Source of the DNA: Chitinophagales bacterium
Lineage (GTDB): Bacteria; Bacteroidota; Bacteroidia; Chitinophagales; Chitinophagaceae
NCBI GenBank assembly: GCA_026931905.1
Contig: JAIXLB010000093.1
Coordinates: 1 to 45,237 of the forward strand
Direction of reading: 5' to 3'
Length of the DNA stretch: 45,237 nucleotides
Shown: positions 37,083 through 40,481 of the stretch, one piece after another
Numbering within the stretch: the stretch's first letter is position 1
How the letters are laid out: every line of letters starts with the position of its first letter
Notes under the pieces: model-generated
The model's database searches: none
Seen by the model: the letters and a program-made list of their open reading frames with translations, nothing else
Told to the model about the DNA's origin: nothing
Position numbers and translations under genes: made by a program

Positions 37083-38621
37083 TTACTCTTCATTATCAAT
37101 TAAGTTCAAAGGGTAAGTATAAGTACCTTCATAACCTGGGTAAATACCATCTAATCTTATTTTTTCTTTTGCTTGATTTATTGCATTTTTCAATTCTTCA
37201 AGGTTCTTTACATCAATACCATTTACAGTTGTAATAACAAAGCCTTCTTGTACACGAGTTTTAGACAAAGCACCATTACCTATTTTTTTCACAACTACAC
37301 CACCTTCAATATCATTTGCTTTTGCTGTTTTGCTATCTACATTTTCTAATGTACCACCAATTTTATCAAATAATGTAGATGCTTTTACAATATCTGTATT
37401 GCCAGCTTTGTTTTTTAATGTTACAGTAACCGTATTTTCTTTGCCATTTCTTAAATAAGTAACTTTTACTTTATCGCCAGGTTTGTACAAAGAAATCTGT
37501 TCTTGAATTTGAGGACCACTTGTTACAGCCACTCCATTTAATTTAGTAATAATATCTTTTTCTTTCAACCCTGCTGTTGCAGCAGCTCCTCCTTCTGGAG
37601 TTTCTAAAATAAATACGCCTTCATTGGTTTTCCAAGCATTGCCATATTTTTTATCTAATTCTGCTTGTTGCGATTCTGGCATACCATCTGCAGGATAAGA
37701 TATTCCTAAAAATGCTCTTTGTACTGAACCAAATTTTACCATATCGGCAATTACTTTTTTTACAATGTTTACAGGAATAGCATAAGAGTAGCCTGTATAA
37801 TAACCAGTAGGAGATGCAATAGCACTATTAATTCCCACCAGCTCACCATTTGTATTTATTAAAGCTCCACCGCTATTACCTGGGTTTACAGCAGCATCTG
37901 TTTGTATAAAGCTTTCAATGGGGGTTTTGCTTTGGCGTTGATTTATATTAATACTTCTTGCTTTTGCACTTACAATTCCTGCACTTACAGTAACATCAAG
38001 ATTTAAAGGATAACCAATGGCTAAAACCCATTGACCTAATTTTACTTCATCGCTATTACCATATACTAAATAGGGTAAGTTTTTGTCTTCAATTTTTATT
38101 ACTGCAAGGTCTGTACTCGGGTCTGTTCCTATTACAGAAGCTTTGTAAGTTTTTTTATTGGTAAGTGTTACATTAATTTCATCTGCACCATCAACAACGT
38201 GATTGTTGGTAACAATGTATCCATCTTCACTAACAATTACACCACTGCCACTTGCTTGTTGTTCTGGTATAATTTGCATACGAGGTCCATTAAAAAAATC
38301 ATCAAACATATCGCCACCAAACATATCACTAAAAGGATTTTTATAACGTGGTGCATTATTGCTTACTTGACGAGCTTTTGTTTTAGTTTTAATGTGTACA
38401 ACCGCAGGTGTTGCACTTGTTGCAGCAGCAGAAAAATCAAAACTTGCATTTCCTGGTGCTTCATTGTTGAAAAACCTTGCATAATTTACAGGAAGTTTTC
38501 CTTCTTCTTGTAATCCTGTGTACTTGCTTTGTTGCCATTTATCATAACCTACCACACTCAAAACAGCAGTAGCAGCACTTACAGCAACTACAACCATTAA
38601 ATTTTTGAGATTGTTGTTCAT
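37083..38621 (-). CDS. Do-family (DegP/DegQ) periplasmic serine protease with two PDZ domains
   Basis: A 512-residue envelope protease/chaperone. A single N-terminal membrane helix (about 8-26) acts as signal or anchor. The triad is H141 (TNNHVVDGADE), D171 (DPSTDLAVIKI) and S250 (AVNPGNSGGALIN). A first PDZ domain covers about 290-400 (ILETPEGGAAATAGLKEKDIITKLNG), and a second, less typical one runs to the end (GGVVVKKIGNGALSKTRVQEGFVITTVNG). It degrades misfolded envelope proteins under stress. The 420-bp upstream region includes a candidate RNA gene. Confidence 0.93.
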   Translation of the reverse strand: MNNNLKNLMVVVAVSAATAVLSVVGYDKWQQSKYTGLQEEGKLPVNYARFFNNEAPGNASFDFSAAATSATPAVVHIKTKTKARQVSNNAPRYKNPFSDMFGGDMFDDFFNGPRMQIIPEQQASGSGVIVSEDGYIVTNNHVVDGADEINVTLTNKKTYKASVIGTDPSTDLAVIKIEDKNLPYLVYGNSDEVKLGQWVLAIGYPLNLDVTVSAGIVSAKARSININQRQSKTPIESFIQTDAAVNPGNSGGALINTNGELVGINSAIASPTGYYTGYSYAIPVNIVKKVIADMVKFGSVQRAFLGISYPADGMPESQQAELDKKYGNAWKTNEGVFILETPEGGAAATAGLKEKDIITKLNGVAVTSGPQIQEQISLYKPGDKVKVTYLRNGKENTVTVTLKNKAGNTDIVKASTLFDKIGGTLENVDSKTAKANDIEGGVVVKKIGNGALSKTRVQEGFVITTVNGIDVKNLEELKNAINQAKEKIRLDGIYPGYEGTYTYPLNLIDNEE

Positions 38622-38880
38622 ATTTCTTATGTTTTAAATTTTTATAAATTCAATTTTATTGTAAAAAATTTCAGGTATTTTATCTCAAATACTATGCCTT
38701 TCGTATGCAAGTAAATAAACTGTCATAAATGTATGTATAAAACTGAATTGATTTAACAATCTTTTACGATGCATTTAACAAGTTTATAAATATCTAAAAT
38801 TAATTACAAAAATGAAAAATGACTTATTGGGCAAATAAAAAAATTAACCTGCATAAAAAATAATTTTCATCACAATAAAA
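38622..38880. other. AT-rich intergenic stretch upstream of the Do-protease gene
   Basis: No open frame or stable hairpin was found here. It presumably carries the promoter of the protease gene; a TAGTATTTG near-match is seen on the minus strand around 38690, one base too long for the consensus. Confidence 0.4.
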
Positions 38881-38910
38881 AAGCAAAAGAATTTTTTAAT
38901 TCTTTTGCTT
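38881..38910 (-). terminator. Rho-independent terminator in the ferredoxin/Do-protease intergenic region
   Basis: A 13-bp perfect stem with a TTTT loop region, followed on the minus strand by six T residues. It would end the candidate RNA and any read-through from the ferredoxin gene. Confidence 0.8.
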
Positions 38911-38970
38911 TGCTGAAGCGGGAAATATCACCCACTGTTACTTAAAGCATTTTACTGCTTGTACGAAGCA
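38881..38970 (-). ncRNA. Candidate structured small RNA with its own terminator
   Basis: Read on the minus strand, about 90 nt between the ferredoxin and Do-protease genes form a compact structure. Near the 5' end TGCTT can pair with AAGCA (38970-38956), or AAGCA with the next TGCTT (38949-38945). The following part folds as TGCT/AGCA, AAG/CTT and GGG/CCC (38949-38911) with a large one-sided internal loop. It ends in a 13-bp perfect hairpin AAGCAAAAGAATT / AATTCTTTTGCTT (38881-38910) followed by TTTTTTATTG, a textbook terminator. A weak -7 box (TATTTTAG, 38971-38978) precedes it. A 6S-Flavo-like RNA is one thought, but I could not verify the family. Confidence 0.45.
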
Positions 38971-39040
38971 CTAAAATAGTTATTAAAATTTTACAAAAAA
39001 AGTATTTTGATATAAATACTTTTGCACAGCTTAATGTGCA

Positions 39041-39388
39041 TTAAACGTGCATTTTGTCTTTCTTGGCTAATAATTCTTCTACAGTTTCTCTATATAACTC
39101 ATCTGGCACACAACAATCTACAGGACACACAGCAGCACATTGAGGCTCTTCATGAAAACCTTGACACTCTGTACATTTATCGTGTACAATATAATAAGTA
39201 TCTACACTTATGGGTGCATTGCGTTGCTCAACATCTATTGTTGTTCCATCCATTAATGTAAAAGTTCCTTTTACTGTGGTACCATCTGTAATAGCCCATT
39301 CTACCCCCCCTTCATAAATTGCATTATTAGGGCATTCTGGTTCACAAGCACCACAATTAATACACTCTTCTGTTATTTTAATTGCCAT
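39041..39388 (-). CDS. 2[4Fe-4S] ferredoxin
   Basis: A 115-residue electron carrier. Cluster I ligands C9, C12, C15 and C19 form CINCGACEPECP. Cluster II ligands C72, C75, C84 and C88 have a long CxxC-x8-CxxxCP spacing like Alvin-type ferredoxins, with two extra cysteines (92-93) behind. About 45 residues between the clusters are rich in Thr and beta-prone (TDGTTVKGTFTLMDGTTIDVE), an insert not present in the smallest ferredoxins. It is divergent from the LuxC-like reductase with 88 bp between, and I recall the two genes as neighbours in other Bacteroidota. Confidence 0.9.
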   Translation of the reverse strand: MAIKITEECINCGACEPECPNNAIYEGGVEWAITDGTTVKGTFTLMDGTTIDVEQRNAPISVDTYYIVHDKCTECQGFHEEPQCAAVCPVDCCVPDELYRETVEELLAKKDKMHV

Positions 39389-39444
39389 AAAAAAAAGTTT
39401 AAAGTAAGTTATTTGATTACAAATATTTTCGCTTTTTACAAGCT

Positions 39445-39476: not shown

Positions 39477-40481
39477 ATGACTTTACAAGAAAGAATTGCG
39501 TTATTAGAAAACTTAGGTAATTACATGCAAGGCAATAGTGAAGAATGGCAAGCTATTCAACAAAAAGCTTACATAGAAAATGCCTGGTTTATTCCTGAAT
39601 TTATAACTTTAAGTGTAAATAATATTGTAAAAGAATTTTTAATTAAAGAAAAATTAGAACAATGGGCTTTACAATATAAAATTCCAGAACAAAATTTAAC
39701 TCCTAAAACCATTGGTGTTACAATGGCTGGAAATATACCTCTTGTTGGGTTCCACGACTTTTTGAGTGTATTTATTACAGGGCATAAACAAATGATTAAA
39801 CCCTCTTCTAAGGATAGTGTTTTAATAAAGCATTTTGTAGGTAAACTAAAAGAATGGGATAAAGAAATTGATAACTTTATATGCTTTGCTGAATTGTTGA
39901 AACATTGTGATGCATATATAGCAACAGGTAGCAACAACAGTAGTAAATATTTTGATTATTATTTTAAAAAATATCCAAACATTATTAGAAAAAATAGAAC
40001 TTCTGTTGCTATTTTATCTGGCAATGAAACAAAAGAAGAATTGAAAAAATTAGCAAGTGATATACAATTGTATTTTGGACTAGGCTGTAGAAATGTTACA
40101 AAACTTTTTGTGCCCAAACAATACGATTTTTTGCCACTTTTTGATATGCTAAAGCCATACGATTATTACTTAGACTTTCATAAATACAAGCACAATTATG
40201 ATTATCATTTAGCTTTATTAATTATGAGCAATAAATTATACATGAATACAGGCTCTGTGGTTATTGCAGAAAATACAAGCAACTTCTCTCCTATTAGTCA
40301 GTTGCATTATGAGTTTTATGAAGATGTAAATACTGTAATAGAACAACTACAAAACAACGAAGAAATACAATGTATTGTAGGATATAAAGGATTGCCTTTT
40401 GGTATTGCTCAACAACCTTGTTTAACAGATTATGCTGATGGTGTTGATACTTTGGATTTTTTATTGAATAAATTAAATTAG
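39477..40481 (+). CDS. LuxC-like acyl-CoA reductase
   Basis: A 334-residue protein of the acyl-CoA reductase (LuxC, PF05893) type, which in the known members reduces fatty acyl groups to aldehydes with NADPH. The nucleotide-binding half contains TIGVTMAGNIPLVGFHDFLSVF and IKPSSKDS; the expected catalytic cysteine is C204 in LYFGLGCRNVTKLFVP. It is shorter than LuxC (about 480), lacking much of the N-terminal part, as is common in Bacteroidota. No lux or fatty-alcohol genes are nearby. Its end overlaps the end of mutY by 9 bp. Confidence 0.8.
   Translation: MTLQERIALLENLGNYMQGNSEEWQAIQQKAYIENAWFIPEFITLSVNNIVKEFLIKEKLEQWALQYKIPEQNLTPKTIGVTMAGNIPLVGFHDFLSVFITGHKQMIKPSSKDSVLIKHFVGKLKEWDKEIDNFICFAELLKHCDAYIATGSNNSSKYFDYYFKKYPNIIRKNRTSVAILSGNETKEELKKLASDIQLYFGLGCRNVTKLFVPKQYDFLPLFDMLKPYDYYLDFHKYKHNYDYHLALLIMSNKLYMNTGSVVIAENTSNFSPISQLHYEFYEDVNTVIEQLQNNEEIQCIVGYKGLPFGIAQQPCLTDYADGVDTLDFLLNKLN

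Follow-up and report, generated by a model that had tools for sequence, protein, structure and literature searches.

Comparative analysis points to a genuine, previously uncatalogued RNA family, of a known kind (a small RNA, sRNA, encoded in the 3' region of a gene), behind the ferredoxin gene fdx of the Chitinophagaceae. The alignments established a conserved structured element with covarying pairs, the signature of a promoter and a terminator, and constant linkage to fdx. This element is probably a family-specific sRNA that arises from the fdx 3' region under its own predicted promoter and acts in trans through the loop of its second hairpin.

A three-hairpin RNA in the gap behind fdx

The window, that is, the whole 45,237-nt stretch of DNA that was analysed, contains a gene-free intergenic gap of 419 bp (38622-39040, ORF check) between fdx and a Do-family protease gene, in agreement with the 420 bp described in the first-pass annotation of this DNA. 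The enrichment in G/C described there also held, with a G+C content of 0.33 for the RNA segment vs 0.20 and 0.21 for the flanks. The features of the locus, in the direction of transcription, are as follows.

39041-39388, minus strand: fdx, YfhL-family 4Fe-4S dicluster ferredoxin (NF033683, 90.4 bits, cut-off 86)
38995-39021, minus strand: weak A/T-rich hairpin followed by T7 past fdx, a probable separate fdx terminator (sequence and script)
38971-38978, minus strand: -7 promoter box TATTTTAG (aligned position of the TAnYTT box across loci)
38877-38966, minus strand: small RNA of ~90 nt (covariance-model match, fold and promoter spacing; the start is a prediction, and the 3' end falls in the terminator U-run)
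38945-38960, minus strand: hairpin H1, AAGCA-GUAAAA-UGCUU (fold; stem kept across loci)
38917-38936, minus strand: hairpin H2, (A)GUGGG-UGAUAUUU-CCCGC(U) (covariation in the outer pairs, near-invariance in the loop and the two inner G-C pairs)
38923-38930, minus strand: near-invariant H2 loop UGAUAUUU (comparison of loci)
38880-38911, minus strand: hairpin H3, the intrinsic terminator, followed by a U-run to 38877 (terminator scan; covarying pairs)
37083-38621, minus strand: Do-family (HtrA/DegP-like) serine protease, 3' neighbour of the RNA (TIGR02037, 407 bits, marginally below cut-off)

A gene for a LuxC-like acyl-CoA reductase (39477-40481, plus strand; PF05893) lies divergent from fdx in the window and likewise at a same-genus locus (L005).

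A fold of the single sequence 38860-39000 pulled promoter bases into H1 and was replaced by a promoter-trimmed fold. The 91-nt RNA (38966-38876) reached -28.2 kcal/mol vs -13.7 for its shuffles (z -5.05), none of the 200 shuffles being as good. The terminator scan of the minus strand found 14 pairs followed by a T-run at 38911-38880 (1 found vs 0.1 expected in shuffles), which bears out the textbook terminator recognised earlier. Thermodynamic and comparative structure agree on three consecutive, separate hairpins, replacing the nested pairings with a large internal loop that had been proposed. The extent given on first pass (38881-38978) reaches too far upstream: position 38978 opens the -7 box and lies outside the RNA; conserved promoter spacing places the predicted start at about 38966.

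The pairings covary around a near-invariant loop

Across a set of 100 loci, 98.7% of the cells in the two modelled helices were paired, and two-sided changes were found in 11 of the 16 pairs. The covariation score (0.257) was higher than in all 500 shuffles (mean 0.171) and in all slid controls (0.04-0.13). The first-pass annotation had called the segment an unannotated structured RNA candidate and had made conservation of the pairings in relatives the check on it. The pairings are indeed conserved and covary throughout the Chitinophagaceae, and the description is strongly supported.

The three hairpins vary in different ways. In H1, more than 40 different stem sequences occur, and a stem of the required strength is present in 90% of the loci vs 23% of shuffles; its distance to H2 is 7-10 nt in 112 of 121 loci (typically ~9 nt). 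The outer pairs of H2 vary (G-C, A-U, G-U, U-A), and its two inner G-C pairs and loop UGAUAUUU hardly vary. Across 121 loci this loop is invariant except for U to G at one position in 3, an invariance that is partly built in because many loci were found using the core; loci found by the model only nevertheless agree (L384, L385, L108 and L372 carry UGAUAUUU) or carry UGAUAUGU (L106, L371). H3 alternates between GGUGAAGG/CCUUCACC, GGCAAAAG/CUUUUGCC and other forms with pairing preserved, two-sided changes occurring in 8 of its 10 pairs.

Distribution within the Chitinophagaceae

A DNA search, run first, gave related sequences from genomes of the same genus as well as a 24-base match beside the same ferredoxin in another genus. 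Tracing through the family with the 18-mer GYGGGTGATATTTCCCRY led to an alignment of 30 loci and to the covariance model R1, which matches the window at 38876-38967 (70.7 bits, E 7.6e-17). Of 147 Chitinophagaceae genomes, at least 112 carry a match to R1 at E<=0.01, some 83 of them reaching E<=1e-8. This is probably a lower bound, because the search filters were strict; with laxer filters, seven of ten genomes of the window's own genus matched at E<=1e-5. The carriers, more than 100 related soil and water bacteria of the family, include Niastella, Flavihumibacter, Lacibacter, Pinibacter and Terrimonas among those with names.

Searches with R1 over 296 genomes of the phylum and 149 of the order gave only weak scores (at most 40 bits) outside the Chitinophagaceae, and the out-of-family loci that were read had no H2. 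Terminators alone yield weak R1 matches outside the family. Possible out-of-family members (L107, L109-L111, L373-L377) were rejected, no H2 being seen and most being bare terminators, as was one extra match within the family in which H2 was not seen (L378). A pattern scan of 84,980 GTDB species gave at least 119 places; among the matches listed, 104 lie behind fdx, five are genuine and at contig ends, and ten are chance matches in unrelated sequence. Pattern matches outside the family (Accumulibacter, Draconibacterium and metagenome-assembled Gammaproteobacteria) had neither fdx nor the terminator architecture. As far as tested, the RNA is restricted to the Chitinophagaceae.

A predicted promoter and constant linkage to fdx

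Housekeeping promoters of the Bacteroidota carry TAnnTTTG at -12 to -5 and TTTG near -33 (PMC7366714, PMC9723704). Of 122 non-redundant loci, 107-108 have a TAnYTT box some 40-60 nt ahead of H2, where shuffles give 42; TTG is concentrated 22-24 nt ahead of this -7 box (55 of 107 loci), and an A sits 12 nt after the T of the strict box in 76% of the loci having a strict box. Judged by these motifs, most copies of the RNA have their own promoter of the Bacteroidota housekeeping type. Three marks of an sRNA from a 3' region were found together, namely a fixed upstream mRNA gene, a promoter just ahead and an intrinsic terminator at the 3' end; the promoter is present overall, with the box absent in a minority of lineages and the -33 element weak in the window because its TTG (38996-38994) is off-spacing.

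The upstream gene is constant: of 121 non-redundant loci, 120 have fdx immediately ahead of the RNA. At one locus (L385, genome G009, 712-1415) two tandem ferredoxin copies lie directly upstream, and another (L260) has a further ferredoxin-like gene on the downstream side of the RNA.

This linkage also fits a rather unlikely alternative, in which H1, H2 and the terminator form a cis-acting element of the fdx 3'-UTR that protects or destabilises the fdx mRNA, perhaps with a protein bound at the H2 loop, and no independent sRNA is made. Between fdx and the RNA, no other terminator was detected in most genomes, the scan giving one at just 6 of 120 loci, the window's included. The distance from the fdx stop to H2 is 27-74 nt in 16 loci, many of them without a -7 box, and the lineages with gaps of 27-57 nt (about a dozen loci) often show no promoter box; with so short a gap and often no box, the RNA is there probably made from the fdx mRNA or starts inside fdx. 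Against a purely cis-acting role stand the well-placed promoter conserved in most lineages, the probable fdx terminator that precedes the RNA in the window and a few other loci, and the several family members that keep fdx without the RNA, followed by a plain terminator or none that could be seen. The first-pass annotation had itself offered an RNA derived from the ferredoxin 3'-UTR as an alternative, which comes nearer the mark than its 6S-like suggestion; it agrees with the position behind fdx and the usual lack of an intervening terminator, and disagrees with the conserved promoter of most copies and with the weak hairpin and T7 that intervene in the window.

At seven loci (L196, L197, L210, L231, L165, L273, L233) H1 begins almost directly past the fdx stop and no promoter box was seen; evolution may possibly have switched here between a processed form and one transcribed independently. 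Other family members have fdx without the RNA (L059 of genome G006, from the same genus, and L055, L056, L057, L060 and L066), with an unrelated terminator or another gene in its place, indicating that fdx can do without the RNA. Secondary loss is a possible explanation for these loci.

The downstream gene is variable

Among 108 loci, the 3' neighbour is ddl in 78, a small lipoprotein gene in 17, htrA in 4, and other genes singly or in pairs (names read off the sequences, htrA excepted). It lies on the strand of the RNA in 106 of the 108, at a variable distance of 58-510 nt. The small lipoprotein gene (125-164 codons) takes the place of ddl very close past the RNA terminator, for example at L051.

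The common orientation, the frequency of ddl and the order of promoter, RNA and terminator, which resembles an attenuator, would suit a leader of riboswitch or attenuator type, with a promoter, sensor hairpins and a terminator ahead of ddl or another downstream gene. We regard such a leader as improbable. A TATTTG box of its own stands ahead of the ddl start in 49 of 72 loci (2.7 in shuffles), mostly at 22-35 nt, past the RNA terminator. The RNA is retained beside htrA, the lipoprotein gene and other genes; the genome of the window has its ddl homologue on a different contig, and its sole R1 match stays behind fdx. The terminator form is the only pairing supported, no antiterminator being seen. 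Given a varying downstream gene and a separate promoter for ddl, the RNA does not qualify as a leader; it travels with fdx. A leader of ddl was likewise rejected, and no constant downstream gene dependent on the promoter of the RNA was found.

Relation to known RNA families

A search of the whole window with Rfam 15 returned one tRNA and nothing else, and at E<=10 nothing beyond chance-level matches was found in the region of the RNA and in a strong relative (L131), which had no Rfam match above the gathering score. On account of length and an internal loop, the RNA had been suggested to resemble 6S-Flavo, under the accession RF01705. That accession is wrong: RF01705 is Flavo-1, and 6S-Flavo is RF01685. 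RF01685 has no match within 38500-39400 at E<=10 and is above cut-off in 0 of 40 Chitinophagaceae genomes, and neither RF01685 nor RF01705 reaches its cut-off in the window's own genome. Identity with 6S-Flavo (108 positions) or Flavo-1 (76 positions) was accordingly rejected, both being Bacteroidota RNAs of similar length whose models match nowhere in the region.

A 6S-like RNA that binds RNA polymerase is thus rejected as very improbable. Only its length speaks for it, besides a fold of the lone sequence in which the promoter was included. The 6S shape is one long rod, an irregular hairpin with a bubble at its centre and a stem that closes it; in contrast, the consensus here has neither this rod nor the closing stem, consists of three consecutive hairpins and finishes with its own terminator hairpin. 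A chance fold, or merely a strong terminator, could account for the weak matches that bare terminators do produce outside the family, but with H1 and H2 conserved over more than 100 loci and their pairs covarying, this reading is refuted.

Proposed mode of action and targets

In the mechanism that we favour, the RNA, encoded in the interval that separates fdx from the following gene, would have a housekeeping-type promoter to itself and would end at the intrinsic terminator, which probably also ends the fdx mRNA in most genomes. A discrete RNA of ~90 nt would accumulate, and in some lineages it would be released from the fdx mRNA. H1 and H3 may serve as stabilising ends, and the H2 loop UGAUAUUU as the working part, in contact with either a short seed in an mRNA or an RNA-binding protein. 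Targets would then be regulated in trans by an RNA co-produced with ferredoxin. More tentatively, the near-invariant hairpin GGUGAUAUUUCC could be a dedicated recognition site for a protein or a small signal, tying a regulator to the synthesis of an iron-sulphur electron carrier family-wide.

In the window's own genome, the only exact 12-nt complement of the H2 core is the antisense strand of the RNA itself. In relatives, 81 occurrences of the 12-nt complement were inspected (some twice), mostly within coding regions and with no clustering at start codons, and pairing of the RNA with the fdx start region was no better than in shuffles. The negative complement searches make long perfect pairing by the H2 core unlikely, leaving a short seed or a bound protein. 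These searches count against an independent trans-acting sRNA, as do the loci with a short gap behind fdx and often no box, the weak -33 element of the window, and the share that searching with the core had in its invariance, though model-found loci agree.

Regulatory RNA of the Bacteroidota is little mapped beyond Bacteroides and Flavobacterium. A near-invariant loop behind one ferredoxin gene in more than 100 Chitinophagaceae species, several of them cultured, offers a tractable entry point, as the RNA is open to deletion or to mutation of its loop, and the loop can serve as bait for the partner. The RNA may also furnish a family for annotating Chitinophagaceae genomes.

Comparison with known systems

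Nothing relevant on the sequence or on Chitinophagaceae sRNAs was found in the openly searchable literature. The Bacteroides sRNAs GibS (RF04182) and FopS (PMC7366714, PMC11697453) are likewise sRNAs of the Bacteroidota and share the promoter type of the phylum, TAnnTTTG, but have another genomic setting. The GibS model did not match a relative significantly (21.9 bits, gathering score 115, E 0.49).

Closer in organisation are DapZ and MicL of enterobacteria, sRNAs with transcription of their own that are encoded in the 3' regions of mRNAs and use the terminator of the host gene. They belong to another phylum, and no homology in sequence or structure to them has been shown; the Chitinophagaceae RNA, for its part, is always found with fdx. 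What the systems have in common is a small structured RNA whose own promoter lies inside the upstream gene or past it, a shared intrinsic terminator and a fixed link to one gene.
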